A stretch of DNA of 50,203 nucleotides from an uncultured Clostridia bacterium (GTDB taxonomy: Bacteria; Bacillota; Clostridia; RUG12999). A program made the translations under genes and the position numbers. Numbering within the stretch: position 1 is the stretch's first letter; every line of letters begins with the position of its first letter. This document shows positions 16,701-30,663 of the stretch, one piece after another. Location: NCBI GenBank assembly GCA_946555455.1, contig CAMNSU010000010.1, positions 1 through 50,203 of the forward strand, read 5' to 3'. A model generated the notes under the pieces. That model did no database searches. It had not been told where the DNA came from and was given only the letters and a program-made list of their open reading frames with translations.

Positions 16701-17941
16701 CCGAAGGTCACAATACCTATGTGATTAATCCCGATGAAACGCCGGGGCAAGGCGACACCGCACTTGCGGAGGTTACGGAATTTGTGAGCAAAGACAAAGG
16801 CAGTTATGCGGTCATTGACCTGACGCAGGCATATGGTGAAGCGCTGGACATGAAACGTGGATTCATGCTTACAAACGACCGTCAATCTTTAATTATTCAA
16901 GATGAAGTTTCTCTTGCGGGCGCAAGTGAAGTCTATTGGTTCATGCACACCGCCGGAGACATTGAAGTGGCGGAGGACGGCAAAAGCGTGTATATCACCA
17001 ATTCCGGCGTCACCATCAAAATGGAAATGCTGGAGAGCGACGACGGCGGTGCGAAATTTGAAGTGCGCGACCCGCTGCCGCTGGATACCACGCCATGGCT
17101 GGAAGGTCAGGGACGCAACGAAAAATTTAAAAAGCTGGCGATTCATTGGGACAATGTCCAGAGTTACACACTGGCAATTGCGGTTTCTCAAGTGATTGAC
17201 CGCGCGGTACCAACCTATACGCAGGAGGTTGTACCAATCAGCAATTGGGAAATTCCGGACGGTGAAATCGTACCGCTGCCCAAGCTAACCGGTATCACGA
17301 TGAACGGCGCAGCGCTGCAAGGCTTTAAGCCGGAGCAATATACCTATTCTGTGAACCTGCCGTATGACGTCGAAGAAAAACCGGTTTATGCCTACACGGC
17401 AGACAGTAGTCTGGAGGTCACTGTAGAAGAAAGCGAAAAGATTATCGGTAACACGAAATTCATTGTGCATGACAAAGAAACCGGAAAATATGCGGTTTAT
17501 GTTGTCAGCACGCATGTGAATAGCTACATTGGTCAGATTCCGGGCAGCAAAGAACTGAATATTGTCGGCGTGACAGCAAGCGATGAACAGGCAGCGGAAG
17601 GAAACTATGCAGTCGGCGTATTGGATAACGACTACATGACGCGTTGGGCTGCTATGTATGACGCATGGCTCACGGTGGAACTGGAAGAGCCGACAGAAAT
17701 TTATGCACTTGGACTCTCATGGTATCTGGGAGACCAACGCAGCTACATTTATGATGTGGAAATTTCCATGGACGGTGAAAACTGGACGCAGGTATATTCC
17801 GGTGTATCCTCCGGAACGACAAAAGACATCGAAAGCATATTGCTGGGCAACCAGAAAGCAAAATATGTGAGATATCAAGGTCATGGACATTCCACCGGAG
17901 ATTGGAACAATCTCTCGACGGTCAGAGTCTATGGGAAATAG
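13730..17941 (+). CDS. Secreted heparinase II/III-family polysaccharide lyase with discoidin tail, 1403 aa
   Basis: Probably cleaves uronic-acid polysaccharide outside the cell by beta-elimination. After a signal peptide come a LamG-like sandwich (about 40-243) and a second sandwich (257-410). A copper-amine-oxidase-N-like segment follows (PPRVFDGKPYVPAED... then NYISAQRMAAIFGL). The alpha/alpha-toroid lies at about 587-903 and the heparinase II/III C-terminal sandwich at about 917-1123. Candidate catalytic residues in family order are Asn750/His754 in NWNPWCH, Tyr802 in GISYHA and His949/His951 in SHFHYD. A cadherin-like domain (1185-1261) and an F5/8 discoidin domain (1272-1403) end the protein. 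It has no SLH domain, so it is free or bound through its lectin parts. ATG 13730 is chosen because it directly starts the signal peptide; ATG 13691 would add 13 residues. The substrate (heparan sulfate, alginate-like or other) cannot be read from the sequence. Confidence 0.88.
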   Translation: MRKKSRIKRQLLLWTAAAMLLQPMMFQLPAAASETVISEFSDQFEDYAHDGGMLYAKKWDNVKQGMAADSRVSIEHDGGNGFAAFYVKGGVENGQASYPSVAVRKNNINNQGRTLVYEGSFYTFDQNAKMTFAFTNGKTSELQEMFVLQGSEISTKTANGQFQAVSSAAETKKWNRIALALDGAAGTYRIYLNGQAVTDSVPVSLGKLDISALSMQISVKNPTGIAYAEGRIYMDDVYVYEAAAPVENTDSIISQTTDITTYLNRQFTSVGEDSRAHGVAMFTGTVNIVDTPSATNKSAKIMVGTDGAYFPLEQIAVENFNAKIIYQADRDVTLCAKDKNGKTENLVTVPARSGFGSVKAAFDMETGACTLTDENGKTHSAPITLKNIMSIGFDGEGASLTLNKLFAYSGAEDVDDSYFKDYAYQKKARDILVTDTWKANYDVLEQGVLMGIDFYQASVFGNKIRLSGQPPRVFDGKPYVPAEDTAVYLGGEVLEPSETAPVRIAVNGKTVEIGSGEIRREKDTNYISAQRMAAIFGLELAWDGEYLLGFGKKTLFNGAKEQDELKNALYFQRPTGAEIYDRIQKKGSLHPRIYVGAERFAEVRENIENNPTMQAWYDKIMKEAEGYLDTYALYFERSDGVRLLAVSNTMVARMTALGVAYQMTGDTKYAEAAWRDLEAVSNFSDWNPSHYLDVTTMSHGVAIGYSWFYDWLSEDQKNIIVEGFIRCGLNSYIEGLDMDDWWAHVNSNWNPWCHSGLMSAIVAMSDRLGERGMYALDRAFPYLEYLYPEFLPDGAWVEGISYHATTLIYLSEWCATMETATGKDFGYWDLPGMELTPYYGEALSGAGGVYNYGDNTEVVSNCAAQAWFAYKYHDNGLMQMRYSNILSRGLTTNWYDLLMLRPEMMNGSSSMANDMLYQDKNIVSLRTSWTDSLNGFFVGAKGGQNGESHFHYDLGGFVMDVGGVRFAYELGRESYATTANDTETYQYKKRAEGHNTYVINPDETPGQGDTALAEVTEFVSKDKGSYAVIDLTQAYGEALDMKRGFMLTNDRQSLIIQDEVSLAGASEVYWFMHTAGDIEVAEDGKSVYITNSGVTIKMEMLESDDGGAKFEVRDPLPLDTTPWLEGQGRNEKFKKLAIHWDNVQSYTLAIAVSQVIDRAVPTYTQEVVPISNWEIPDGEIVPLPKLTGITMNGAALQGFKPEQYTYSVNLPYDVEEKPVYAYTADSSLEVTVEESEKIIGNTKFIVHDKETGKYAVYVVSTHVNSYIGQIPGSKELNIVGVTASDEQAAEGNYAVGVLDNDYMTRWAAMYDAWLTVELEEPTEIYALGLSWYLGDQRSYIYDVEISMDGENWTQVYSGVSSGTTKDIESILLGNQKAKYVRYQGHGHSTGDWNNLSTVRVYGK

Positions 17942-17972
17942 TACGCGGAAGCGGTAAAACGAAATCATGATG

Positions 17973-18016
17973 TATGCCCGAAACGACAAAGAGAAATCCG
18001 CGTTGTTTCGGGCATA
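17973..18016 (+). promoter_or_regulatory. Hairpin between the two lyase genes
   Basis: A 12 bp perfect stem (TATGCCCGAAAC at 17973-17984 with its complement at 18005-18016) can extend inward by a G-T, an A-T and a C-G pair. There is no following T-run, so it is not a typical terminator. It lies in the 125-base gap between the paralogous lyase genes and ends 50 bases before the next start. It could stabilise, process or attenuate the message and so set the ratio of the two lyases. Confidence 0.55.
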
Positions 18017-18066
18017 TTATCAGGCGTTTCCTGCAAAGAACTTTAAGAAAACGGAGGTGAGGGGCA

Positions 18067-21000
18067 ATGAGAGGAAAAAAGGGCAGCGTATGGACACTGT
18101 TCCTTCTGCTGACGCTGTTATTACCATCTATGTCCGGCTATGCGGCAGGCGGCAGTGCAGCGGCTTCTATTGAAATTGAACATTTACCGGATTTTATTAT
18201 GACCAACAGGGAACAACAATCCACTGCCACCTTTTATCCGTCTGCTGCCGCCTATGATGCGGATGGCAAACGGCTGGAGGGACAGACGTTTATCTGGTCG
18301 CTGAAAGAGCAGGCAGAGGGCGTGACGCTGCTGGATAGGGCGACAGGGGCATTTTCTGTGGAGGGCGGTGCGGCGGCGGAAGAATTTACCCTACTGTGCC
18401 GCACGGCGGACAGCACGGCAGTGTCCGCGCAGGTCACGATACCGCTGAACCGCCAGGTGAATCTGGTAGAGGATAAAGTGGGCTGGACGGTGCAGGGCTG
18501 GGGCAAAGTGAGCGGCGCGGTGGACGGATATCACTGGACACGCTGGGATTCCGGCAAGCATTCCAGAGGCGGCGCGCTGGCGTTTTATGATGCCGGGAAA
18601 CAGGTGAAAGCAAACTATTTCCGGTTGAAATTGGGTAACATTAAAAATTCCAGTTCGCTGCGGATTGCGGGCAGCGATGCTTTAGTGGGTGCGGACGGCG
18701 CACCGGCAGCGCCGCCGGGAAAAACGGATACGGTCTATAACACAGCTGCAAGCGTCCTGCCGGTGCTTTCTCCGCGAAATGGAAACAATCGAAACTGCGG
18801 CGAGACCTATTGGTCGGCGCGTTCGGCAAACGCCGCTGTGGAGCCGTCTTTAGAGCAGGAACAGGTACTGACGGAAAAAGACAATCACGGTTATTGGGGG
18901 GAGCGGGAATTTCAATATATCGGCATATTGAACTATGCCGCCGATACCACAGCAAATCTTGGCAATTTCACAGTATATGATTTCGGCGTATATTACACTG
19001 CGCCCAACTATGTCAATATTGCACTGCCGGAAGAAGCGGAACCGGGCGCGGCGGTGCAGCTGACGGCGGAGGTCTATAACGGCGTTGCTGCGGAGGAAAA
19101 AACAGGCGTGGGGACATGGAGCGCACAAGGATTCGAGATTGACACGCGCACCGGCGTGTTGACGGTGCCTTCGGCGCAGCGCGTCGGCGCTGTCACCTAT
19201 ACCTATGAAACGGAAGGATTCCGTGCGCAGACCACGGTGTATGCCTGTGCGGAGCGCGGCAAAGTGAAATTTGCAAACGCACCCGACACGTTTTGGGACT
19301 TGCAAATGAAACGCGGTTTTGTATGCAAAGGAAACACCTTGACGGTTCCGGCAGGCACAACGGCAAAGCAGCTTCGGGCGGGAATTGTGTCTCCCAAATG
19401 CGACGTCAAAGTGCAGTGCGTTGATATGGAAGGGACGGAAATAACAGAAGGAACGCTGAAAAAAGGCGACGCTGTTTGGCTGACCGACGGCGCGGCGGCG
19501 GTACGATATAAGATTGACACGGCAAAGAGCGGACAGGGCAGCGCGGAGTTGGTGAAATCGGACGGAAGTTATACGGCAACCGCCGAACTGGACGCGGCGG
19601 TTCCGGAAGCGGTTTTGATTTTAGCCGCTTATGATGAGAATAAAATGACAGAAATGAAGGCTATGGAAAAAACACGGGCGGAGGAAACGCTGACAGTAAC
19701 ATTGCCGGAAACCAAAAAAGGGAATGGGGTAAGAACAATGGTATGGGATTCGTTTGAAAACATGCAGCCTCTGCGGGCGCAGGAAAAGACCGAGATTTAT
19801 GTAAATCGGCAGTTCACCGGCATTGCAAAAGACGAGCGTGCGCATGGCGTGGCGACGTTTACCGGCGCGGTGGACATTGTGGATACACCGTCGGCGGACA
19901 GCAAAAGCGCCCGCATAACGCTGGGAACGGACGGCGCATATATTCCGCTGGACAAAGCGGCGACGGGAAGTTTTACAGCCAAAATCGTTTATCAGGCGGA
20001 CAGTGATGTGACATTGTTTGCCAAAAATGAAAACGGGAGAAAAGAAACGCTGTTCACCTTGCCTGTCAAAAACGCGCTCTCCGGCGTCAAAGTAGCGTTT
20101 GATACAGACCATGGCGTTTGCACGCTGACAGACGAAACAGGAGCGGAAACGAGCGCGGCGGTTTCCCTTGAAAAAATTGCAGGTCTTGGGTTTGTAGGCG
20201 AAGGAGTAAGTCTCACGCTGCATAAACTCTTTGCTTACAGCGGCGCGGCGGCATTGGAGGATTCCTATTTTCAGGACTATGCCTATCAGGAAAAAGCGAG
20301 GAACCGGCTGGTGACGGAGAAGTGGAAATCTGCTTATAAAACGTTGGAACAGGGCGTTTTAATGGGCATTGATTTTTACCAAATCTCCCTGTTTGGCAAC
20401 AAACTGCGAATCGACGGTCAGCCGCCGCGTGTATTTGATGGCACGCCTTATGTACCGGCGGAACAGACGGCAATCTGTCTGGGCGGCGAAGTGCTGGAGG
20501 CGACAGAATCCGCGCCGGTACGTATTGCAGTAAACGGCAGGACGCTGGAACTTGGCAGCAGCGAAATCTATCGGACAAGGGATACCAACTATGTTTCAGC
20601 GCAGCGCATGGCGAACCTGTTCGGATTGACACTTTCGTGGGACGGTGAATATTTGCTGGGGTTTGGCAGAGAAAAACTGTTTGATGAAACCAAAGACCAG
20701 AGTGATTTGAAAGCGGCGCTCTATTATCAGCGTCCGACAGGGGCAGAAATTTTTGATAGGATGCAAAAGAACGGCGATAAACATCCGCGTGTGTTTGCAG
20801 ACGCGGCGCGGCTGGACGAAGTGCGGGACAATATCGCGCGCTATCCCATTCTGCGGCAGTGGTATAACAGTTTGGTGGAGAAAGCGGAGGGATATGCTAA
20901 CGCGGAAACATTATATTACACAAAGCCGGACGGTATTCGTCTGCTGTCGGTATCGGTTGAACTGCTGCGCCGCATGGAGAATTTGGGGATTGCCTATCAA

Positions 21001-22554
21001 ATGACGGGCGATGCCAAATATGCACAAACAGCATGGCGGGATTTGGAAGCGGTGTCAAATTTTGGCGACTGGAATCCCTCGCACTATTTAGACGTTGCCA
21101 CCATGTCCATGGGCGTAGCGGTGGGCTATAGCTGGTTTTATGACTATCTGACAGACGCGCAGAAAGACACGATTGCGGAAGGGTTTACCCGCTGCGCGCT
21201 GAATACCTATATAGAAGCAGTGGACAGAGGTACCTGGTGGACATATGTGAATTCTAACTGGAATCCATGGTGCCACGGCGGTTTGCTGGAGGGCATTGTT
21301 GCCATGAGCGACCGGCTGAATGCGGCAGACGCAATGTATGCACTGGACCGTATGTTCCCTTATATGGAATACCTCTATCCCGAATTTATACCGGACGGCG
21401 GCTGGGCGGAGGGTACGGCATACCATGCGACCACGCTGCGCTATTTATCGCTGTGGTGCGCCACATTGGAAGCCGCCACAGGAAAAGATTTTGGATATTG
21501 GGATTTGCCCGGTATGGATACGACGGCATATTTCAGTGAAGTGCTGTCGGGAGCGGACGGTGTGTATAACTATGGCGATAACACAGAAACGCTTTCTCAA
21601 TGCGAAGCGCAGGAATGGTTTGCCACAAAATATAACGACCCTGCGCTGGCGAAAATGCGTTATCATAATTTGCTGGAGGGCGGGCGCGATATCTATCTGT
21701 ATGATTTGCTGATGACACAGCCGGAGGACATGGGCGGCACAAGTGCAATTGCGCCGGATACGTATTATCAAAAGATGAACATTGTTTCCATGCGGACGAG
21801 CTGGACAGATTTATCGGACGGATTCTTTTTGGCGGCGAAAGGCGGAGAACATGGCGTGAGCCATTTCCACTATGACCACGGCGGATTTGTCATGGACGTG
21901 GGCGGCGTGCGGTTCGCTTATGAATTGGGGCGCGAAAGCTATTCGATAACGGGAAACGATACCAAGACCTATCAATATAAAAAGCGCGCCGAGGGACACA
22001 ACACCTATGTCATCAATCCTGATGAAACGCCGGGACAAGTGGATAAGGCGGTTGCACCGGTAATCGGTTTTGACAGCAGCGAGAGCGGCTGTTATGCCAT
22101 CATTGACCTGTCGCAGAGTTACAAAGAAGCGCAGGACATGAAACGCGGCTTTTGGCTCACAGATGACCGACGGAAACTTTTGATTCAGGACGAAGTGAAG
22201 CTATCCGAACCGTCTGAAGTCTATTGGTTCATGCATACACAAGGGAACATTGAAGTGCAGGACGACGGAAAAACGGTGTATATCACCAAAGATGGCGTCA
22301 CAGTGCGGCTGGATATTTTGGACAGCGCAAACGGCGGCGCGAAATTTGAAGTGCGGGACGCACTGCCGCTGGAAACCACCCCATGGCTGGAGGGACAGGG
22401 ACGCAACGAGGCGTTCAAAAAGCTGACCATTCATTGGGACAGTGTGCAGGATTTCACGCTTTGCGTCATGGCGACACAGGTGAAAGATTCTGCCGTTTCA
22501 CCTGATATTCCGGCAGTGGTTCCCATGGACACATGGGAAGTCTCGAGTCGGTAA
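18067..22554 (+). CDS. Secreted heparinase II/III-family polysaccharide lyase, paralogue of the previous gene, 1495 aa
   Basis: A signal peptide leads into a domain pair unlike its neighbour's. An Ig-like segment is followed by a discoidin-like sandwich (about 134-306, VGWTVQGWGKVSGAVDG) closely resembling the modules of the SLH protein at 6055-11025, then further beta domains to about 570. From about residue 577 it is collinear with the upstream lyase: sandwich (577-728), amine-oxidase-N-like segment (765-868), toroid (902-1218) and C-terminal sandwich (1237-1445). Long shared runs include GKDFGYWDLPGM and KRAEGHNTYVINPDETPG. Candidate catalytic residues are His1070 (NPWCH), Tyr1119 (GTAYHA) and His1266/1268 (SHFHYD). 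It lacks the cadherin-like and F5/8 tail and ends soon after the sandwich. A strong ribosome site (GGAGGTGAGGGG) precedes ATG 18067. It is the last gene of the operon. Confidence 0.88.
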   Translation: MRGKKGSVWTLFLLLTLLLPSMSGYAAGGSAAASIEIEHLPDFIMTNREQQSTATFYPSAAAYDADGKRLEGQTFIWSLKEQAEGVTLLDRATGAFSVEGGAAAEEFTLLCRTADSTAVSAQVTIPLNRQVNLVEDKVGWTVQGWGKVSGAVDGYHWTRWDSGKHSRGGALAFYDAGKQVKANYFRLKLGNIKNSSSLRIAGSDALVGADGAPAAPPGKTDTVYNTAASVLPVLSPRNGNNRNCGETYWSARSANAAVEPSLEQEQVLTEKDNHGYWGEREFQYIGILNYAADTTANLGNFTVYDFGVYYTAPNYVNIALPEEAEPGAAVQLTAEVYNGVAAEEKTGVGTWSAQGFEIDTRTGVLTVPSAQRVGAVTYTYETEGFRAQTTVYACAERGKVKFANAPDTFWDLQMKRGFVCKGNTLTVPAGTTAKQLRAGIVSPKCDVKVQCVDMEGTEITEGTLKKGDAVWLTDGAAAVRYKIDTAKSGQGSAELVKSDGSYTATAELDAAVPEAVLILAAYDENKMTEMKAMEKTRAEETLTVTLPETKKGNGVRTMVWDSFENMQPLRAQEKTEIYVNRQFTGIAKDERAHGVATFTGAVDIVDTPSADSKSARITLGTDGAYIPLDKAATGSFTAKIVYQADSDVTLFAKNENGRKETLFTLPVKNALSGVKVAFDTDHGVCTLTDETGAETSAAVSLEKIAGLGFVGEGVSLTLHKLFAYSGAAALEDSYFQDYAYQEKARNRLVTEKWKSAYKTLEQGVLMGIDFYQISLFGNKLRIDGQPPRVFDGTPYVPAEQTAICLGGEVLEATESAPVRIAVNGRTLELGSSEIYRTRDTNYVSAQRMANLFGLTLSWDGEYLLGFGREKLFDETKDQSDLKAALYYQRPTGAEIFDRMQKNGDKHPRVFADAARLDEVRDNIARYPILRQWYNSLVEKAEGYANAETLYYTKPDGIRLLSVSVELLRRMENLGIAYQMTGDAKYAQTAWRDLEAVSNFGDWNPSHYLDVATMSMGVAVGYSWFYDYLTDAQKDTIAEGFTRCALNTYIEAVDRGTWWTYVNSNWNPWCHGGLLEGIVAMSDRLNAADAMYALDRMFPYMEYLYPEFIPDGGWAEGTAYHATTLRYLSLWCATLEAATGKDFGYWDLPGMDTTAYFSEVLSGADGVYNYGDNTETLSQCEAQEWFATKYNDPALAKMRYHNLLEGGRDIYLYDLLMTQPEDMGGTSAIAPDTYYQKMNIVSMRTSWTDLSDGFFLAAKGGEHGVSHFHYDHGGFVMDVGGVRFAYELGRESYSITGNDTKTYQYKKRAEGHNTYVINPDETPGQVDKAVAPVIGFDSSESGCYAIIDLSQSYKEAQDMKRGFWLTDDRRKLLIQDEVKLSEPSEVYWFMHTQGNIEVQDDGKTVYITKDGVTVRLDILDSANGGAKFEVRDALPLETTPWLEGQGRNEAFKKLTIHWDSVQDFTLCVMATQVKDSAVSPDIPAVVPMDTWEVSSR

Positions 22555-22578
22555 ACCAATGGAAAATGAAAAAACAAG

Positions 22579-22617
22579 TAAGTCTCTGCCCGCCTGATAT
22601 GGGCAGGGACTTATTTT
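22579..22617 (+). terminator. Intrinsic terminator after the second lyase gene
   Basis: A 13 bp stem (22579-22591 with 22601-22613, one G-T pair, GC-rich core TGCCC/GGGCA), a 9-base loop and a following TTTTG tract, 25 bases after the stop codon. It ends the first operon. Confidence 0.85.
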
Positions 22618-22642
22618 GTTGCGGGAAGAAATAACCGGACTA

Positions 22643-22671
22643 TTGTAAATGAAATCATTTTATGCTATAAT
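22643..22671 (+). promoter_or_regulatory. Sigma-A promoter upstream of the second AraC-type gene
   Basis: TTGTAA (22643-22648), 17 bp spacer, TATAAT (22666-22671) preceded by TG at the extended -10 position. Transcription would start near 22678 and give a leader of about 160 nt containing four hairpins. Confidence 0.65.
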
Positions 22672-22809
22672 GATTACAGAAATCTTGCTTTGCAAGATTT
22701 AGCGGCTTTGCCGCTGCGTGTGCAGTGCACACGCCTGTATCATTGAATCACAGCGTAAAAATGCCCTTGCAAGCAAGCATTTTTACTTATGCTATAATGA
22801 CTACAGAAA
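22661..22809 (+). repeat. Hairpin chain between two copies of a promoter-like 22 bp direct repeat
   Basis: The segments 22661-22682 and 22788-22809 are identical except for one T/C change, and each contains an extended -10 box (TATGCTATAAT). Between them lie three back-to-back hairpins with three-base loops: AATCTTGC/GCAAGATT (22681-22699), AGCGGC/GCCGCT (22701-22715) and GCGTGTGC/GCACACGC (22716-22734). A fourth stem, GTAAAAATGC/GCATTTTTAC, spans 22755-22786. The layout fits a small palindromic element inserted with duplication of its target, or a duplicated promoter. The second -10 copy has only a poor -35 at the right distance. Confidence 0.65.
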
Positions 22810-22837
22810 AGAAAATGCATTGCAAGGAGGGAACAAT

Positions 22838-25132
22838 ATGCTAAAAAAATGGCGGCAGTTGTTGACGCAGAAAAACAGTCTGTTTCATAAATATTTGTTG
22901 GCGCTGCTGGCGCTTTTGATTGTTCCTACATTGCTGGGCGTGGCGATGTTCCAAGTTTCCATGCGCGCCATGGAAAAGGAAGTGCGGGAAAACAGCCGCA
23001 AAACGCTGGAACAGGTGCAAAAAACACTGGACAGAGATTTGGAAAATATCCGCCGTATTGCCATGGATTTGGCGGAAAGCGAAGAGTTAATCAATTTTAC
23101 CTACAATAAAGATGATGTGGAGAGCCTATATCGTTTGGCAAAGCTGACGGAAAAAACAGGGAAAAACTATAATGACCAAAATGCGTTGATTGTGGAAAGT
23201 TTCGTCTATATGAAAGAAAACGAAGTGGTGTTGTCAGGACGCGCGAAATATACGCCGCGGGAGTTTTATAACTATTTTATGAAAATGGAAGAGTGGAGTT
23301 ATGACGAATGGATTTTACATATGGACGGACAGTATTTTAACGACACGCTTCCGGCGCAGATTGTAGAATTCAAATCGGGTGAAGGGAAAAAACGTGTGAT
23401 TCCCTATATTCATTCCTATCCGATGGGTGGCAGCAGTCAAGGAAATATTGTGATTTTTTTGGATTATGATAAAATCACCGCTGCATTTGAAAGTGTTTAT
23501 GGCAGTGAACAAAGCTGTATGTATTATATCAATCAAAACGGAAACGTGGTATTCACGGTCGGCAATGAAACGCTGCGGCAGGAGGGGTTTGCGTCTCTGG
23601 AGGAGGGCAGCCATACCGGAAAAGCAGGCAGCAAAAGCGTGCTGGTATTTAAACAGAACGGAGAAAACAGAAACAGTCAATATATCAGTGTGGAAGATAG
23701 GAAAAAAATCAAAGCGCAGACAGCGCCGGTGCGTAACGTAGTTGTGATTTATTTTTTGCTCATGCTGCTGGTCGGCGTGGCGCTGGCAGCTTATGTCGCC
23801 TATCGGGGCAGCAAACCGGTGGAGGAACTGGCAAGGTCGCTGGGCGCGGGAGAGAAAGAAAACGAAAAACATTCCGGCGGTGAATTTGCCTATATTTCCA
23901 GCCGCGTGAAACAATTGGTGCAAGAGAAAAATGAAGCGGAGAATATCATGCGAAGGCAGCAGCCGGCGCTGCGGAAAAATTTGTTGGTGAAAATGATGAA
24001 CGGCAACTTAGGCGATATTGAGGATTTGGACACAGCGTGCAGGGCAGTGGGACTGGAGTTTCGATATCCGCTTTATTGCGTTGTGGCATTTGACGTGCAG
24101 TTGCCGGACGAACAATCGGATTCCGATTTGGCGTTGGTGAAATATGCGCTGCAAAATGTGGCGGAGGAAGTGTTTGCAGATATTGCAGACCCCTATATTG
24201 TCGATAATGGGTGGTCGCAGATATCCATGTTGCTGAATTTTGCGGCGGAGAACCGAACGCAGCAGACCATCTTGGAAAAATGCCGTTTCATGCAACATTT
24301 CATGCAGGAACAATTGGAGGCAGACGTTGGCGTCGGCGTTGGAGAAAGCGGCGCAGTGAAAACGATTTCGCTGAGTTTTGCGCAGGCAAAAGAAGCGCTG
24401 GACTACCGGACGCTAAGCGGCAAAGAAGGCGTGATATGTTTTAGCGATTTGGCGCAGCAAAGCCATAAATATTATTATTCCATGCAGCAGGAGAATCAGT
24501 TGCTCAGCAGCGTTATGATGGGCGACGAGGAAGGTGTGGCGCGGCTGCTGGACGAAATTATTCAGATGAACCATAATGCGTCGCTGGATATGAGTAAATG
24601 TTTGTTTTTCGATTTGATGAGTACCGCGCTGAAAGTGATGAACAGTGAAGAAATTGATATGAACGCGATTTTTCCGCAAGAGTCGCCGTTTGAAAAGTTG
24701 GTGGGCTGTTCTTCTATCGGTGAACTGCGCGACAATACCAAAGCATTGCTGGGCGAAATTTGCCGCTATATGAAAGCCAACCGAACAGGAAAAAAAGAAA
24801 TGCTGGGACAGGCGATTTTAGAATATGTGAAAAATAATTGTGAAAACAACGCCATGTCGCTGGAGATGGTGGCGAACGCCTTTTCCCTCAACTATACCTA
24901 TGTTTCCCATTTCTTCAAGGACTATATCGGAGAAAATTTTAGCAACTATGTAACGGGCGTGAAAGTGGAAAAAGCGATTGAATATTTGAAACAAACGGAT
25001 TTACCGGTCAGTGAAATTGCAGGAAAACTGGGCTATGCCAACAGCGCGGTGCTGATTCGTAATTTCAAGAAGGTAACGGGCGTCACGCCGGGACAGTTCC
25101 GTAAAATGGAAGGAAAAACGGGCAGAGAATAA
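22838..25132 (+). CDS. Membrane-anchored AraC-family sensor-regulator (YesN-like), 764 aa
   Basis: Second regulator of the locus, with the same architecture as the one at 221-2503. A membrane helix at about 19-38 (YLLALLALLIVPTLLGVAMF) and another at about 298-325 enclose an extracellular sensor region. A central degenerate GGDEF-like region follows, with QEQLEADVGVGVGESG and SLSFAQAKEALDYR. The C-terminal AraC domain is at about 661-757 (YTYVSHFFKDYIGENFSNYV and LGYANSAVLIRNFKKVTGVTP). ATG 22838 is chosen because AAGGAGGG ends 6 bases upstream. It is probably monocistronic: it follows a terminator, and the toxin-like cassette starts two bases after its stop. It may control the unit starting at 31170, the minus-strand gene, or both. 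Confidence 0.9.
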   Translation: MLKKWRQLLTQKNSLFHKYLLALLALLIVPTLLGVAMFQVSMRAMEKEVRENSRKTLEQVQKTLDRDLENIRRIAMDLAESEELINFTYNKDDVESLYRLAKLTEKTGKNYNDQNALIVESFVYMKENEVVLSGRAKYTPREFYNYFMKMEEWSYDEWILHMDGQYFNDTLPAQIVEFKSGEGKKRVIPYIHSYPMGGSSQGNIVIFLDYDKITAAFESVYGSEQSCMYYINQNGNVVFTVGNETLRQEGFASLEEGSHTGKAGSKSVLVFKQNGENRNSQYISVEDRKKIKAQTAPVRNVVVIYFLLMLLVGVALAAYVAYRGSKPVEELARSLGAGEKENEKHSGGEFAYISSRVKQLVQEKNEAENIMRRQQPALRKNLLVKMMNGNLGDIEDLDTACRAVGLEFRYPLYCVVAFDVQLPDEQSDSDLALVKYALQNVAEEVFADIADPYIVDNGWSQISMLLNFAAENRTQQTILEKCRFMQHFMQEQLEADVGVGVGESGAVKTISLSFAQAKEALDYRTLSGKEGVICFSDLAQQSHKYYYSMQQENQLLSSVMMGDEEGVARLLDEIIQMNHNASLDMSKCLFFDLMSTALKVMNSEEIDMNAIFPQESPFEKLVGCSSIGELRDNTKALLGEICRYMKANRTGKKEMLGQAILEYVKNNCENNAMSLEMVANAFSLNYTYVSHFFKDYIGENFSNYVTGVKVEKAIEYLKQTDLPVSEIAGKLGYANSAVLIRNFKKVTGVTPGQFRKMEGKTGRE

Positions 25133-25162
25133 GAGGCGGACGCGGGTTGTTTGATTTTGAGC

Positions 25163-25191
25163 TTGATTTATATACATATATATGATATAAT
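25163..25191 (+). promoter_or_regulatory. Sense promoter of the left cassette
   Basis: TTGATT (25163-25168), 17 bp spacer, TATAAT (25186-25191). It has the same boxes and spacing as the right copy, although the spacer sequence differs, so the promoter appears to have been kept under selection. Confidence 0.8.
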
Positions 25192-25260
25192 AAACTTTAG
25201 GCAGATAAAGAGTGTATCGGAAGGCGGTTTACCCATCTCCTGTAGAAAGGGGGTGGTTGT

Positions 25261-25615
25261 ATGGAGAATATCCTACCCTCTCTTGACAAGAGCACATACG
25301 CCTTTCACAAGAGAAAAATTAGGGCTAGCGGCGTTCTCGTCCTTGACTTGCGGAAAGCAAGCCTTCGTCCTCGGTCTTGCCAGTCCTAATTTTTCTTCTT
25401 GGAAAGGTCAGGAGGAGTTTTTCAGACACAAATTTTGGAAGTGACTAGGAAGACGAGAGAGCAGGGCTCGTGCCCGCGAACGAGGATGACAACGTCAATT
25501 TCAAAATTTGTGTCTGAAAAACCGTGTGTGCCTTTGTCAAGAGAGGGTAGAGTATACAATGATAATCATTGTTCTATTGCTACTTAAAGAGATATTGAAA
25601 TACATAAAAAAGTAG
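25261..25615 (+). pseudogene. Small hydrophobic toxin-like peptide gene split by an inserted element
   Basis: ATG 25261 with ribosome site GGGGGTGG four bases before it begins MENILPSLDK and then runs into the inserted element (25273-25550), where it is out of context. After the element an ATG at 25559 opens a frame encoding 18 residues, MIIIVLLLLKEILKYIKK. Its TAG stop (25613-25615) falls at the same place in the terminator stem as the stop of the intact copy. The gene is therefore probably inactive, unless the downstream ATG is translated. Confidence 0.7.
25273..25550. mobile_element. 278 bp MITE-like element with terminal inverted repeats
   Basis: Perfect 17 bp terminal inverted repeats (CTACCCTCTCTTGACAA at 25273-25289, complement at 25534-25550) extend imperfectly to about 28 bp through a GCACAYACG motif. 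Inside are two long hairpins. One pairs 25312-25323 with 25385-25396 (12 bp perfect) and carries the apical hairpin CTTGC/GCAAG. The other pairs 25417-25437 with 25502-25522 (21 bp perfect) and carries the apical hairpin GGGC/GCCC. There is no transposase frame. The element is absent from the right copy of the cassette, which defines its ends to within a few bases. No clear target duplication is visible. Confidence 0.75.
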
Positions 25616-25651
25616 CCGCCCTCCAGCCAAAGAGTAAGCAGCTACTTTTTT
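25606..25651. terminator. Bidirectional terminator of the left cassette
   Basis: An 11 bp perfect stem (AAAAAAGTAGC at 25606-25616 with GCTACTTTTTT at 25641-25651) has an A-run on one arm and a T-run on the other. It can therefore stop both the peptide message and the antisense RNA. The stop codon of the peptide frame is inside the left arm. Confidence 0.8.
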
Positions 25652-25700
25652 AAGTAACCAATTATTCGGGCAAACCGCCAAAAACGGTTCACTTTTGTCT
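25606..25700 (-). ncRNA. Predicted antisense antitoxin RNA, left copy
   Basis: An RNA starting near 25700 from the minus-strand consensus promoter and ending at the stem at 25606-25651 would be about 95 nt. It would overlap the 3' end of the peptide message and carry a small hairpin AACCG/CGGTT (25673-25677 with 25685-25689). The arrangement matches antisense RNAs of type I toxin-antitoxin systems. The RNA itself is inferred. Confidence 0.6.
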
Positions 25701-25706
25701 GCCTTT

Positions 25707-25735
25707 ATTATATACCATCGTGCAAGGTTTGTCAA
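25707..25735 (-). promoter_or_regulatory. Perfect consensus antisense promoter, left copy
   Basis: Read on the minus strand: TTGACA (25735-25730), 17 bp, TATAAT (25712-25707). Both boxes and the spacing are exact consensus for sigma-A. It points back into the peptide gene. Confidence 0.85.
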
Positions 25736-25790
25736 GGGTGTAGACACGAATAGGGTGCAGGGGCGGACGCGGATTTGTTTGATTTTGAGC

Positions 25791-25819
25791 TTGATTTATA
25801 TACATAACTGTAGTATAAT
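25791..25819 (+). promoter_or_regulatory. Sense promoter of the right cassette
   Basis: TTGATT (25791-25796), 17 bp spacer, TATAAT (25814-25819). Transcription would start near 25826, giving a leader of about 60 nt before the peptide. Confidence 0.8.
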
Positions 25820-25860
25820 GAACTTTAGGCAGATAAAGAGTGTATCGGAAGGCGGTTTGT

Positions 25861-25883
25861 CCATCCCTTTAGAAAGGGGGTGG
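25861..25883 (+). promoter_or_regulatory. Hairpin masking the ribosome site of the small peptide
   Basis: CCATCCCTT (25861-25869) can pair with AGGGGGTGG (25875-25883), which is the ribosome site four bases before the ATG. The left copy preserves the same nine pairs (25233-25241 with 25248-25256) despite base changes, one of which swaps C-G for T-G. Hidden ribosome sites of this kind are known in type I toxin messages. Confidence 0.7.
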
Positions 25884-25887
25884 AGCT

Positions 25888-25959
25888 ATGAAATACATAC
25901 TAAAGATTATCGTTTTTGTCATGATAATTCTTTTAGTTTTTTCTATAAAAGCACAATAG
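25888..25959 (+). CDS. Predicted type I toxin: 23-residue hydrophobic membrane peptide
   Basis: The frame encodes MKYILKIIVFVMIILLVFSIKAQ, a single hydrophobic helix with Lys at both ends. That is the usual make-up of type I toxins, which insert in the membrane. The ribosome site GGGGGTGG lies four bases upstream and is paired in a hairpin. The TAG stop is inside the left arm of the terminator (CAATAGCCGC). A perfect-consensus antisense promoter lies downstream, so an antisense RNA would pair with the 3' end of the message. I do not recognise the peptide as a member of a named family (not TxpA, BsrG or Fst by eye). A leader peptide with no toxic role remains possible. Confidence 0.65.
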   Translation: MKYILKIIVFVMIILLVFSIKAQ

Positions 25960-25991
25960 CCGCCCTCCCAACCAAAGAATAGCGGCTATTG
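25954..25991. terminator. Shared terminator stem of the right cassette
   Basis: A 10 bp perfect stem, CAATAGCCGC (25954-25963) with GCGGCTATTG (25982-25991), and an 18-base loop. T-runs on either side are weaker than in the left copy (TTCGTT on plus; TGCTTTT on minus). It also overlaps the peptide stop codon. Confidence 0.7.
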
Positions 25992-26038
25992 TTCGTTATC
26001 ATTTTGGCAAACCGCCAAAAACGGTTCACTCTTATCTG
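25954..26038 (-). ncRNA. Predicted antisense antitoxin RNA, right copy
   Basis: Expected to start near 26038 and end at the stem at 25954-25991, about 85 nt, overlapping the terminator part of the peptide message. It contains the conserved AACCG/CGGTT hairpin shared with the left copy. Existence is inferred from the promoter and terminator only. Confidence 0.6.
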
Positions 26039-26044
26039 TCTTTC

Positions 26045-26073
26045 ATTATATACCATCATGCAAGGTTTGTCAA
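26045..26073 (-). promoter_or_regulatory. Perfect consensus antisense promoter, right copy
   Basis: On the minus strand: TTGACA (26073-26068), 17 bp, TATAAT (26050-26045), identical in boxes and spacing to the left copy. Confidence 0.85.
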
Positions 26074-26158
26074 GGGTGTAGACCCGAATGGGGTGCAGAG
26101 ACACAAAAGCGTGTGCGTACTTGGAAAGAAGATGATTGGTATTGCAGAACAATAATAA

Positions 26159-26188
26159 CAAAGCCACCGGATTTTTCCGGTGGCTTTG
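26159..26188 (-). terminator. Intrinsic terminator of the minus-strand surface-protein gene
   Basis: A 12 bp perfect stem (CAAAGCCACCGG at 26159-26170 with its complement at 26177-26188) has a six-base loop. Read on the minus strand it is followed by TTATTATT. It lies about 95 bases after the stop of the gene at 26283-30449. On the plus strand it is followed by CTTTAT, so it may act weakly both ways. Confidence 0.75.
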
Positions 26189-26282
26189 CTTTATCATTTC
26201 TATGAAAAACATTGTGCTGTTCCCCATGAAGCAGCTGTTTTTTTCATAAACACCATCAAACGGTGAACGTTCCTATGTGGGA

Positions 26283-29200
26283 CTAGTCCACTAACCATGG
26301 GGTATAATCAGAAGTCAAAGCGCCCATACGCATGTTAATCAGCATCAAATCGTTGATGTTGATAATGGTTGCGCCGTTTTCGTCTGAACCATCATAGAAA
26401 TTGAAACTTTCCAGCAGCACGCCGTTTTCGTTACGGCTGTTGTAGCGTCCCACCCAATTGATACGGTATTCGTTGAAATCGTCATACTGAATGCCGCGTT
26501 TACCGTCCAAATCGCCAGGATAGAGCACAATTGGTTTTTCTGCTGTGGAAATCTTAAAATCTTCTGTTGCCGGCATGGTGAACGTCACCTGCCGCGTCAG
26601 ATAGTTGGTTTTGCTGATGGTCATGGTGTGCGGTTTTGCAGAGATATATTCTTCAAACTCAAAATATCCATGCAGCACGCCGTTTGCCTTTGTGGTGGTC
26701 GAAATTGATTTTCCGTCGCTGCCCACAACATCGTTGATGGTAATGGTAATACCGTCGTGGGTGGCTTTGGTTAATGATTTCGTGTCCAATTTAATATAAC
26801 CGGAAAGTTTGAGCGCTTTGGGGTTATACATGACAGGCGTCTTTTTGTAGACGGTTCCGTCTGCTTTTGTCAGGCGATAACCAATCGTACCACCGACAGG
26901 ATTTAATGCATAAACTTTAGCCTCTGAACCGGAGCCGACTGTCCGCGACGGAACATTATAACCGGGACTGAACAGCATTCTGATTTGGTCTGCTGTTAAA
27001 GAAGCATAAGTGACAATCGCTGCTGTATCAGCATAGTCACGGTAAATTTCCAGTTTGTCGCCCACTTCCAGTTGAGATTTGTTAGTCCCGATGGAGAACT
27101 TGATATAGTCATAGTCCGTACCTTTGGAGTTGATAACGTCAACATACATGTTGGGGGGCGGTACCGCGTCCACAGTATAGACTTTCAGTTTTTTCTGCAA
27201 TGTCAGCGGCGTACCGTTCAGCGTCTGCTGAATCTGCACGGTCACTTCATCATAGGACTGCGCGTGGAAATCCTTGTCGGCGCGCACCGGTTCAATCACG
27301 CCGGCATCTGTGACAATGACGTTGGGCGCAACACGTTTGGCATCGTCGCCGCGGTCTGCGTCGGAACGGTTGTCAACCGCCGTTACCGTTTTGACATATT
27401 CAATCGTATAATCTTTTGCATCGCCCGGTGCAACCTTCACTTTGTCCGCCAAATCATAGGTCTGTTTCAGCCCTTCGCCGTATACCAACGTGATGGTGTC
27501 GCTCGGCAGAACGATTTCATAAGGCGCGAGACGTACTTTCACGTTCACGTAGTCGTAAATCGTCGGGTCAACGCTGGAAGAAATTTTCAGAATAATGTCA
27601 TCGTCATCCTCCGTCGAGTTTTGTGCAATCACTTTGCAGCTGGGTGTTTTTGGATTGGTGTTTGAACTGTCTGCTGCAATTACCATTGGCGCTTTCGCGT
27701 CAGTACCCAGTGCTTCGGTGGTTTTGGGAGAACCATCGTCATTGCGGTCTAATACCCGCAGCAGCTGCCATTTCACGTCTGTGCTAAAATCGTCTTCATT
27801 TTCCGCTGTAAAAGCAGCCTGGAACGTATAGGTATCTTCTAAATCCTCAATGCCCTGATCGTTGAATTCCAACTTGGTGGAAGCGTTTACCAGGAACTTA
27901 CCGCCCATGCCGGTCAAATAGCCGTCTTTGTTAGTAATGGTAATTCCGGTCGGTGCAGGAACATCGTTTGTAATTTTAATATAGGCAACACGGAAGCCCT
28001 CGGGATTGTTGTCTTTGTTTGGAATGTGAGAGCCGTAACCGGTAATTTTAATATATCCCGGAACAAAATTGCCCTCGTCGTCCAGCACCGCGTCCGACAT
28101 CGAAATATTCGGCGCAATCGTAAATTCAAAGGATTTTGAGTCATTGTCCGATTTTGTCACAGTGATATAGTCGCTGACCGTAGCGCCGGAAGCGTGGGAC
28201 GTGGAATCCATAAATTCGCATTCCCAGCGATCAATATTCGGCCACGAAGCATTGGTGGGGTCTACCTCCGCCTTGAGTTGATAGGTTGAATCGGTGCTTC
28301 GTTTGTCAATCCGGTAGTAGTCCGGTTTTCCGCTGCCGTCGCTCGCAATATCCGTCACCAGAGAATCGTTGTCACGATAGAGGTTCAAAATCATATCTTT
28401 GATTTCCACTACCTTGAATTTGGATTCAAAGAAGCTGACGTTGTCGAATTCCCAAACAGCGTCTTTTCCGACATCAAGGTCGGAGCTGATATCTAAATCC
28501 GTAGAATACCATTTCGCCGGTTTGTCCGCCCACATCGGGTCGTTGGGAGTACCGTCCAGATGAAAGCCGGTGGTTTGCGGCGTCGGCACGGTTGCCGTCG
28601 GCTGAATGGCTTTAAATTCAATGCTAAACATTTTCACCTGACCGGTGATACGGCTGATGAGCCCTTTGTCCAGCAATGCAGTACCCATCACGGAGACATA
28701 ACCGCTGCCATTGTCAACAACCGGCATACGGCTGTTGTTAGTTAGAACACCGTTGACCCAGCTTGTGCTGATGGAATCCGGGTCATTGCTGCCGCTGGTG
28801 AGATTGGTGCGCAGACCGGAGCCGTTGTTGAAGCCGGGACGTATAACGTTGTCCGCACTGTAGGGAACGCCGTTCATATTCACGACCTGCAAAATGGACG
28901 GGTCAAAGGTAATCGGGATATAGAAACCGGTCAATTTTGCAAAGTCTTCCATATAGATATTCAGTGTAAATTGCTGTCCGACACGGATGGACAAATCGTT
29001 GATGTTGTTTGCCTGCGCGGAATATTCAATCGGCATACCACTGTCTGTAGTGGTGCTGATGGTCATAAACAATTTGTTTGCAGAGGACGGTTTGGTTGGC
29101 GGAATGTTCGAGGGTTTTGTTACCTCCGGATCTTTGGTCGGTACGGTACTGGTGGAACCGTTTCCTGCCAGACCGCCGCTGTTGTCACCTGCAAAATAGT

Positions 29201-30449
29201 CGTCCTGCGACTGCGTGGTAATATAAAATGCTTTGTTGGTAGCACGCACTGCCAACACGGTTTCTTTTTCCGTCACGCTTTCAAAAATCGGCTGCGGAAT
29301 CAGATAATCTTTTTCATAAAATGCATTAACGTTGCCGCCCCAGCCATAGAGTTCGTTGTCTGTTGTCATAACAACAACGGAATGGTCCGCCGAAGTCATG
29401 ATATAATGCGCGCGCTTGTTGGGATAATTTACGCTGCCGGGACCAAATGCAGCATAGGGAGTCGGACGGTCGTTGGGATGCACATAATATTCGTGAATTC
29501 GCCCACTGGTTTCTTGAGATACCATCCATTCGCCGTTTCCGAGTTTTCCGCCGGCGCTGCTGCCCCATGTCCAGATGGTGCCTTTGTCGTCCAGCGCAAC
29601 AACGGTATTATATTCTAAAGAAAGTTGTTTGATTTTCCTGCCGCTGAATTCGGAGCGACCTGTTACCCGATAAGGGGTTGTTTTGGGGATTTCCGTTTTG
29701 GTTTTGCCGTCCGAGCCCCAGCCGTTTGGAATCTGCCCACGGAGATTTTCTCCCCAACCAAATACCTCACCGCTTTCCATCAGCACTAGAACTGCGTTGA
29801 TTGGTGTAGTAGGTATACTGGGGGTAAGAGTAGCCGGACCGGAAACCCAAACTTCTTTAATCTTTTCGTCTCTTCCGGTTGCGCTTTTAAACCGCGCCAT
29901 CATTTCCGGCGTATCCACGCGGTATTGGTTGTTTGCAGTTCTCGGAAGAACCCACCACTGAATGCTGCCGTCTTTGGCTTTCACTTTCGCGCCCATACCA
30001 AAATAAGCGCCGAAGGTTACATCTAAAATCTGTCCGCCGTCAAACAGTTCAGAGCCGTTTGATGGTTTCACTTCCGTCCATGTTGCGGTGGAAGCTTGAT
30101 ACAGTTTTCCTTCTTCACTCACAGCCATACAGCCGGTATCGTGGAAACCGGCTTTAATCACACCAAAACCGCCAAAGACAGAACGGTCAATTTTCATAGG
30201 ACTGGGATAGTTTTTCGTTTCGCCGAGTCCAAGCGGTGAGTTAGGACCATTGGTTCCCCACACGTAAAGGTCGCCGTCAACCAGCTTTGCCATGAGAGGA
30301 TATCCCACCGATACAGAATGCGCGTCATGCAGCTCGTCCACCGTAGCCGTACGCGGTCGGGTCGAAGCTGCTGAAGCAGCCATATTCGGCAGAACAAAAG
30401 CAGAACAAAGCAGCGTCAACGCTAAGATAAGACTTACTTGTTTCTTCAT
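26283..30449 (-). CDS. Secreted RCC1-repeat protein with cohesin-like and dockerin-like parts, 1388 aa
   Basis: Large exported protein of unknown role, transcribed against all its neighbours. A signal peptide (MKKQVSLILALTLLCSAF) precedes a predicted beta-propeller of RCC1-type repeats at about residues 30-430 (LYVWGTN, VFGWGENLRGQ, IWTWGSSAGGKLGNG, LYGWGGN). A cohesin-like domain follows at about 461-612 (LTGFYIPITFDPSILQV). Several Ig-like regions come next, then a C-terminal segment with dockerin features (about 1308-1388: GDLDGKRGIQYDDFNEY and NINDLMLINMRMG). These features suggest protein-protein or protein-glycan docking at the cell surface, but a true cellulosome is not shown. ATG 30449 follows AAAAAGGAGT by about 11 bases; an upstream ATG at 30491 is less likely because it precedes that site. 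Confidence 0.8.
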   Translation of the reverse strand: MKKQVSLILALTLLCSAFVLPNMAASAASTRPRTATVDELHDAHSVSVGYPLMAKLVDGDLYVWGTNGPNSPLGLGETKNYPSPMKIDRSVFGGFGVIKAGFHDTGCMAVSEEGKLYQASTATWTEVKPSNGSELFDGGQILDVTFGAYFGMGAKVKAKDGSIQWWVLPRTANNQYRVDTPEMMARFKSATGRDEKIKEVWVSGPATLTPSIPTTPINAVLVLMESGEVFGWGENLRGQIPNGWGSDGKTKTEIPKTTPYRVTGRSEFSGRKIKQLSLEYNTVVALDDKGTIWTWGSSAGGKLGNGEWMVSQETSGRIHEYYVHPNDRPTPYAAFGPGSVNYPNKRAHYIMTSADHSVVVMTTDNELYGWGGNVNAFYEKDYLIPQPIFESVTEKETVLAVRATNKAFYITTQSQDDYFAGDNSGGLAGNGSTSTVPTKDPEVTKPSNIPPTKPSSANKLFMTISTTTDSGMPIEYSAQANNINDLSIRVGQQFTLNIYMEDFAKLTGFYIPITFDPSILQVVNMNGVPYSADNVIRPGFNNGSGLRTNLTSGSNDPDSISTSWVNGVLTNNSRMPVVDNGSGYVSVMGTALLDKGLISRITGQVKMFSIEFKAIQPTATVPTPQTTGFHLDGTPNDPMWADKPAKWYSTDLDISSDLDVGKDAVWEFDNVSFFESKFKVVEIKDMILNLYRDNDSLVTDIASDGSGKPDYYRIDKRSTDSTYQLKAEVDPTNASWPNIDRWECEFMDSTSHASGATVSDYITVTKSDNDSKSFEFTIAPNISMSDAVLDDEGNFVPGYIKITGYGSHIPNKDNNPEGFRVAYIKITNDVPAPTGITITNKDGYLTGMGGKFLVNASTKLEFNDQGIEDLEDTYTFQAAFTAENEDDFSTDVKWQLLRVLDRNDDGSPKTTEALGTDAKAPMVIAADSSNTNPKTPSCKVIAQNSTEDDDDIILKISSSVDPTIYDYVNVKVRLAPYEIVLPSDTITLVYGEGLKQTYDLADKVKVAPGDAKDYTIEYVKTVTAVDNRSDADRGDDAKRVAPNVIVTDAGVIEPVRADKDFHAQSYDEVTVQIQQTLNGTPLTLQKKLKVYTVDAVPPPNMYVDVINSKGTDYDYIKFSIGTNKSQLEVGDKLEIYRDYADTAAIVTYASLTADQIRMLFSPGYNVPSRTVGSGSEAKVYALNPVGGTIGYRLTKADGTVYKKTPVMYNPKALKLSGYIKLDTKSLTKATHDGITITINDVVGSDGKSISTTTKANGVLHGYFEFEEYISAKPHTMTISKTNYLTRQVTFTMPATEDFKISTAEKPIVLYPGDLDGKRGIQYDDFNEYRINWVGRYNSRNENGVLLESFNFYDGSDENGATIININDLMLINMRMGALTSDYTPWLVD

Positions 30450-30663
30450 AGTTTTGCCACACTCCTTTTTTAATAAATAAACAAAGAACATTCTCCCGCA
30501 ATCATATACTTTTCAAAAATTTACCGGTTTCAAGATTTCGGCAAATCAATAAAAGTATCCCCACAGACTGCACGAGAAACGGATAACGGCTGCCCCACGC
30601 AGACACCATATCCATCTGCGTATACAGCCCAGTCTATGCATTTGCATAGAACTATCCTTGTAC

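Follow-up and report, generated by a model that had tools for sequence, protein, structure and literature searches.

An RCC1-propeller protein with a type II-like cohesin and an X-module-dockerin end, a candidate adaptor scaffoldin of an uncultured Clostridia bacterium

The 50,203-nucleotide stretch of contig CAMNSU010000010.1 analysed here (assembly GCA_946555455.1, positions 1 to 50,203; hereafter the window) comes from an uncultured Clostridia bacterium with a draft genome of 3.13 Mb in 181 contigs (G000, in which the contig in question is C10), which was compared with two relatives of the same genus, G001 and G002. On its minus strand, to which all coordinates of the protein refer, the window carries a gene for a predicted secreted protein of 1388 amino acids, denoted P0001 (26283–30449), in which a signal peptide is followed by an RCC1-type propeller, a cohesin, a beta-rich immunoglobulin (Ig)-like string and an X-module joined to a dockerin (together, XDoc). 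The open reading frame as a whole spans 26283–30491 and amounts to 1402 amino acids when counted from its first ATG; the ATG at 30449 is preferred as the start because it is preceded by a good ribosome site (AAAAAGGAGT at 30461–30470, read by eye) and opens a signal peptide-like stretch (residues 1–28, 30366–30449, also recognized by eye), and the stop codon occupies 26283–26285. An earlier note, made from the sequence letters without database searches, had described RCC1 repeats, a cohesin-like domain, an Ig-like string and a dockerin-like end in this order. The comparisons reported below establish the domain identities and bear out the order, and the end of the protein proves to be more specific than had been claimed.

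The cohesin (residues 455–690, 28380–29087) was delimited with sequence profiles, a structural model and Pfam run on the domain alone. In the full-length protein Pfam detects no cohesin or dockerin at E ≤ 1, and NCBIfam none either; in the isolated domain PF00963 is the sole Pfam family found (E = 0.0021, 18.7 bits vs a cut-off of 24.1), and the same model matches 17 of the 21 rows of A5, a cohesin alignment that includes sequences from other genomes, at E ≤ 1. As a single sequence, P0001 weakly matches a type II cohesin (3l8q, E = 0.008), and the profile of the family's cohesins matches 13 solved chains over about 55 columns, all 13 of them type II cohesins. A hidden Markov model from the nine A5 rows that do not belong to the P0001 family, among them an SLH protein on contig C9 of the same genome, recovers residues 469–621 (E = 8e-16), and another from five cohesins of two genomes with multi-cohesin scaffoldins recovers residues 466–543 (E = 2.6e-7); as a control for chance, three cohesin profiles were run against 200 shuffled versions of P0001, none of which they matched at E ≤ 10. 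When the model of the domain (21 sequences; predicted local distance difference test score, pLDDT, 69; predicted template-modelling score 0.71) was compared with solved structures in VIA, type II cohesins took ranks 1–17 (Z 11.9–13.0, root-mean-square deviation 2.7–3.2, 151–156 residues aligned), with most other cohesins, including those of types I and III, below them (Z 8.2–11.1), and in a Foldseek search all 31 chains at E ≤ 0.001 were cohesins, type II leading. Structure prediction, which had been named beforehand as a check, thus yields a type II cohesin fold, and the profiles and the model together indicate that P0001 carries a genuine, type II-like cohesin. A W-x-G...P..(N/D)N..G stretch is common to the P0001 family and the single cohesins of SLH proteins in two further genomes (G178 and G325) and is absent from the multi-cohesin scaffoldins.

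The C-terminal end comprises an X-module (about residues 1210–1309, 26523–26822) and a type II dockerin (residues 1310–1388, 26286–26522), both assigned by their match to solved type II XDocs. The single sequence of P0001 matches solved chains that join an X-module to a type II dockerin, namely 4wi0 (E = 4.2e-8), 2b59, 4u3s and 3kcp, and each of the best six solved chains found with A3, a profile of eight family sequences, is an XDoc of type II (E = 5.7e-14 to 1.7e-11), the matches extending over about 140–170 columns of the XDocs of CipA, ScaA and CipB. These sequence matches identify the end as a complete type II XDoc with both of its modules. PF00404, the Pfam model of type I dockerins, finds nothing in P0001 at E ≤ 1. 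Read by eye, the first calcium loop (residues 1313–1324, 26478–26513) runs D1-L-D3-G-K5-R-G-I-Q9-Y-D-D12, one side-chain ligand being lost because of the lysine at position 5, and the second (residues 1353–1367, 26349–26393) keeps D1, N9 and D12 and has three residues more than the canonical 12. The paired calcium loops, whose absence the earlier note would have taken as telling against a dockerin, are only partly canonical: D1, D3 and D12 are retained in loop 1 next to K5, as are D1, N9 and D12 in the second loop next to the three-residue insertion. All eight rows of A3 have D1 and D12 in each loop, and N9 in the second, without exception, and in ScaA of A. cellulolyticus a solved type II dockerin still holds calcium with a four-residue insert in loop 1 (PMC5141474). 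Given the invariant ligand residues and, by analogy, the insert tolerated in ScaA, calcium binding by the P0001 dockerin is plausible.

At the other end of the protein, the propeller (about residues 29–430, 29160–30365) is recognized by the Pfam RCC1 and RCC1_2 models above their cut-offs (PF13540, 44.6 bits, cut-off 22; PF00415, 33.4 bits, cut-off 21.7), and in a single-sequence search it matches solved chains of UVR8, HERC and RCC2. A Pro/Thr/Ser-rich linker, apparent from the sequence (residues 431–454, 29088–29159), separates it from the cohesin. The long middle part (residues 691–1195, 26865–28379) contains no Pfam family; in a model of 949 residues from seven sequences (mean pLDDT 53.7) it is nearly all beta, and the Foldseek list of this model consists mostly of Ig-like domain strings, at template-modelling scores so low that they are indicative only. 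The Ig-like string of the earlier description is accordingly retained as likely, with a beta-rich fold, a low-confidence model and no Pfam family behind the name.

P0001 is one member of a gene family, of which its own genome has at least five distinct representatives, on contigs C10, C155 and C88 and, as N-terminal copies, on C151 and C160, a count that follows from the distinctness of the latter two, the signal peptides of which are identical and the propellers 55% identical. The relative on C155 is full length (1369 amino acids, 44%). Contig C151 (locus L026) carries the C-terminal part of one copy, a spacer of about 0.6 kb and the N-terminal part of the next, and hence can be read as a tandem array of RCC1-cohesin-XDoc genes; on C160 (L027) a further N-terminus of the family follows an hppA-type gene, so named by eye. 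Among the nine genomes of the taxonomic family that were searched, three contain the P0001 family, all of them from this genus. On contig C169 of G002, the genes after a C88-type member (RCC1-cohesin-XDoc) are, in order, one that encodes two cohesins and a dockerin, two more that end in dockerins, one for an SLH protein and a last gene with a cohesin that matches the P0001 cohesin (E = 1.8e-8). The own-genome counterpart of this last gene is the C9 protein (a frame of 708 amino acids), which ends in three SLH repeats; its cohesin (C9:8562–9131) is matched at E = 2.9e-49 by A5, which contains the C9 sequence, and at E = 3.7e-8 by the profile A2, which does not. Contigs C88, C132 and C9 represent this SLH-cohesin gene cluster in broken-up form, with the tail of the C88 XDoc apparently at C132:2–73 (A3, E = 0.004). 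Within C169, positions 14052–28726 (L039/L040) encode three large dockerin-ended proteins and an SLH-ended one, with N-terminal parts mostly devoid of a Pfam match in scans that were made on the own-genome counterparts of the cluster proteins.

In the other relative, G001 (96% completeness), an orthologue of P0001 is retained and shares 95% identity with it. Beyond this orthologue, A3 finds no XDoc in G001, and A5 no cohesin at E ≤ 0.01, other types such as the type I-like cohesin of C142 (see below) not having been looked for. Contig C54 of G001 (L044) opens with a 36-residue family remnant (72% identity) that adjoins an hppA-type gene; the remnant lies beside what by eye appears to be transposase sequence, at the same spot as the C151/C160 tandem array.

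All parts of the protein are under purifying selection: the ratio of nonsynonymous to synonymous substitution rates (dN/dS) is 0.025–0.19 for all domains and pairs tested, which implies that the parts are in use, and is 0.025–0.11 for the XDoc in four orthologue pairs. In four of five pairs the propeller shows lower conservation than the stretch from cohesin to dockerin (Fisher p from 0.036 to 2e-15), and in the fifth it shows higher conservation (C88/C169, p = 0.008); thus, the variable head holds as a tendency, not as a rule. Positive selection on the propeller was considered and rejected, its dN/dS being 0.09–0.19.

With respect to other cohesins and dockerins, a scan with the profiles of this study finds no cohesin or XDoc in any other open reading frame of the window, and a Pfam scan of 15 window proteins gives no dockerin match, in agreement with the earlier note, which had seen no further dockerin-like part in the enzymes of the window. 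The search of the whole genome that it had proposed returns four frames with PF00404 matches (on C87, C174, C132 and C9), none of which has a glycoside hydrolase match and one of which has an M60 peptidase; the most cohesins in any one frame of this draft genome is two (C132). In the absence of any glycosidase among these dockerin frames, the system does not qualify as a conventional cellulosome. The M60-peptidase protein (C87; L021 2677–8723) has an internal dockerin near its N-terminus, with calcium loops that look canonical by eye, which is found by PF00404 and not by A3. Each of the three genomes of this genus has a dockerin frame of the M60 type (G000:C87, G001:C83 and G002:C226), which in G001 is the sole PF00404 frame; the M60 domain itself was scanned in G000, and the counterparts in the two relatives were identified by the dockerin frame. 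The gene directly after that of the M60 protein encodes a small SLH protein with an N-terminal half that by eye seemed cohesin-like, although a PDB sequence search gave it no cohesin match. Two further proteins of the genome are of related composition. On C174 (L015, 1–2013, minus strand) an XDoc near the N-terminus precedes RCC1-like repeats or their remnants, the reverse of the order in P0001. On C142 (L024, 1–5304) an SLH protein has a cohesin-like stretch just before its SLH repeats (PF00963, E = 1.3e-4, 23.4 bits vs a cut-off of 24.1) that A5 does not recover, and on this sequence match it is a possible further anchor.

As the earlier note had observed, the gene is encoded opposite to, and between, two glycan units: it stands alone on the minus strand, with plus-strand glycan genes on both sides, and the neighbours include heparinase-like (PF07940), SLH, GH95 and NAGLU proteins as identified by Pfam. 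The divergent arrangement of the P0001 gene and a 540-amino-acid frame on its far side is conserved in both relatives. Downstream of the gene lies a strong terminator-like stem of 15 pairs (26157–26190, minus strand). The adjacent region 25147–26190 contains two tandem type I toxin-antitoxin-like units and, on the minus strand, two perfect TTGACA-17-TATAAT sites; an Rfam BsrG match at 25832–26064 (43.2 bits, E = 6.4e-8) stays under the gathering score of 55, and a short hydrophobic peptide frame, read by hand, begins on the plus strand at about 25888. By eye, a palindromic insert resembling a miniature inverted-repeat transposable element (about 25280–25555) splits the second toxin-antitoxin-like copy a few codons past its start.

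Across 391 genomes of the class, the cohesin profile has matches in 9 (E ≤ 1e-4) and the XDoc profile in 12 (E ≤ 1e-6); cohesins of the P0001 type occur singly on SLH proteins of G178 and G325, the SLH repeats being recognized by eye. Outside the genus, no frame with both RCC1 repeats and an XDoc was seen in a comparison by eye of 26 XDoc matches with the RCC1 matches listed for 15 genomes, and the cohesin and XDoc profiles have no match in 15 RCC1 loci (pieces of about 3 kb). In one of these RCC1 loci (L107) an apparent type I dockerin, read by eye, lies ahead of the RCC1 repeats. Plasmid records gave two RCC1-type matches at 29–30%.

The earlier note had called the domain order unusual, but in itself it is less so than supposed. 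Chains with a single cohesin and a single dockerin are already known as monovalent adaptor scaffoldins (PMC11557425), a definition under which P0001 falls by domain content; the novelty here lies in the RCC1 head and in the lack of a cellulosome. Like such adaptors, including ScaO and ScaP of P. cellulosolvens (PMC5590126), P0001 is predicted to be secreted with one cohesin and one dockerin, but it differs from ScaO and ScaP by its RCC1 head, long Ig-like string, tandem paralogs and lack of a surrounding cellulosome, whereas the predicted peptidase modules of those proteins are absent from P0001. CipB of Clostridium thermocellum similarly places modules of uncharacterised function before a C-terminal X-module and type II dockerin (PMC5141474), and the P0001 XDoc profile also matches the CipB XDoc (5k39, 5m0y), although the CipB modules, as described there, include neither cohesin nor propeller. 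C. pasteurianum and Clostridium sp. CT7 likewise have repeat-rich proteins with a type II cohesin and a dockerin, in genomes that have no other partner, but these Coh2-Doc2 proteins have FN3 repeats and a C-terminal Coh2-Doc2 module, and no propeller is mentioned for them (PMC11557425). RCC1 repeats are shared with Cthe_0258, listed among the cellulosomal proteins of C. thermocellum, which differs in being a 51-kDa protein with five such repeats and no cohesin in that listing (PMC6083626). In the Limousia mucinolysome and the X82/dockerin enzymes of C. perfringens, where one GH31 bears both modules, cohesins and dockerins again serve a gut organism on host glycans, but the dockerins there sit on many glycosidases, whereas none was found on a glycosidase in the genome of P0001 (PMC12997984). 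The C9 protein, with one type II-like cohesin and SLH repeats, resembles SLH-anchoring scaffoldins such as SdbA (2bm3); P0001, in which Pfam finds no SLH repeats, does not. In the accessible literature, mostly outside subscription papers, PMC6083626 was the sole source found on RCC1 with a dockerin, and no precedent was found for the union of propeller, cohesin and XDoc, for its tandem paralogs or for the lack of dockerin enzymes.

The natural reading of this sequence is self-assembly or the capture of partners, as the earlier note had suggested. We hypothesize, with moderate confidence, that P0001 is a secreted single-cohesin adaptor scaffoldin in a small, non-cellulosomal type II surface system of this uncultured Clostridia bacterium. 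The XDoc of P0001 would dock on a type II-like cohesin, either that of the SLH-anchored C9 protein or that of a sibling, and its own cohesin would take another dockerin, from a sibling or from the M60-peptidase protein, so that, where the earlier note could name no partner, the C9 protein, the siblings and the dockerin-bearing M60 peptidase become candidates. The Ig-like string would act as a stalk carrying the RCC1 propeller outward, and the propeller would be an exposed variable binding head, probably for a host glycoprotein or another surface component, the former suggested by the glycan-gene neighbourhood. Several observations weigh against such an adaptor role: PF00963 scores the cohesin under its cut-off, PF00404 misses the dockerin, both calcium loops are atypical, and the dockerin is poorly modelled (pLDDT < 50 at residues 873–949 of the 949-residue, seven-sequence model); furthermore, the family is limited to three genomes of one genus, and G001 keeps the orthologue without an SLH-cohesin gene or any other cohesin found. 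Unless the G001 assembly misses it, the SLH anchor therefore cannot be essential.

Conceivably, P0001 molecules join head to tail, each XDoc binding the cohesin of its neighbour, into chains or a lattice studded with propellers, for which the SLH-cohesin protein, where present, would provide only the anchor. This alternative, which we consider less likely, would fit G001, where one A5 cohesin and one A3 XDoc both lie in the P0001 orthologue, as well as the paralogs, which put different heads on one chassis, and the partnerless Coh2-Doc2 proteins described for C. pasteurianum and for Clostridium sp. CT7 (PMC11557425). However, other cohesin kinds, such as the type I-like one of C142, were not searched for in G001, the M60-type dockerin is equally available there as a partner, and the monovalent adaptors described to date are presumed to switch between types, not to self-associate (PMC11557425). 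For G001, then, either genes were missed by the assembly or the only partners found for P0001 are itself and the M60-type protein. More speculative still is a fuller version, in which a self-assembling fibre or lattice of one family would combine head-to-tail XDoc-cohesin joins, an SLH-cohesin wall anchor where present, interchangeable propeller heads from the tandem paralogs and a recruited M60 peptidase.

It also appears improbable that P0001 is the receptor for a single enzyme, its cohesin taking the dockerin of the M60 (mucin-type) peptidase while the propeller targets the pair to its substrate. The M60-type frame is, besides the P0001 orthologue, the only dockerin frame seen in all three genomes, and its calcium loops look canonical by eye, but the types may differ, the M60 dockerin being found by a type I model and not by the P0001 XDoc profile, and the N-terminal half of the adjoining small SLH protein, although without a cohesin match, could be the peptidase's own partner. 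We hold it to be just as unlikely that P0001 is a surface adhesin with a cohesin and XDoc that are leftovers serving only as structural beta domains: the atypical loops and the lack of any window enzyme with a dockerin or cohesin would suit this explanation, but it is at odds with the low dN/dS of the XDoc, with the loop positions invariant in the eight A3 rows and with a cluster that joins the same cohesin with SLH repeats and dockerins. Participation in an ordinary cellulosome is highly improbable, despite the shared domain types and the RCC1 repeats of Cthe_0258 (PMC6083626), given four PF00404 frames without a glycoside hydrolase match and at most two cohesins in any protein found.

Returning to the adaptor scaffoldin reading, cohesin-dockerin pairs are best known from cellulose degradation, and here they occur on proteins that seem to bear heads instead of enzymes, in a lineage with gene clusters of SLH-bound heparinase-like and fucosidase/NAGLU-type proteins. 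G001, where the P0001 orthologue holds the only cohesin and the only XDoc found, bears on the question of orphan Coh2-Doc2 proteins raised in PMC11557425. If the lock works, the arrangement would provide a natural modular display system for engineering. For the organism itself, a gut bacterium without an apparent cellulose-digesting complex, P0001-type proteins probably form a modular surface coat.

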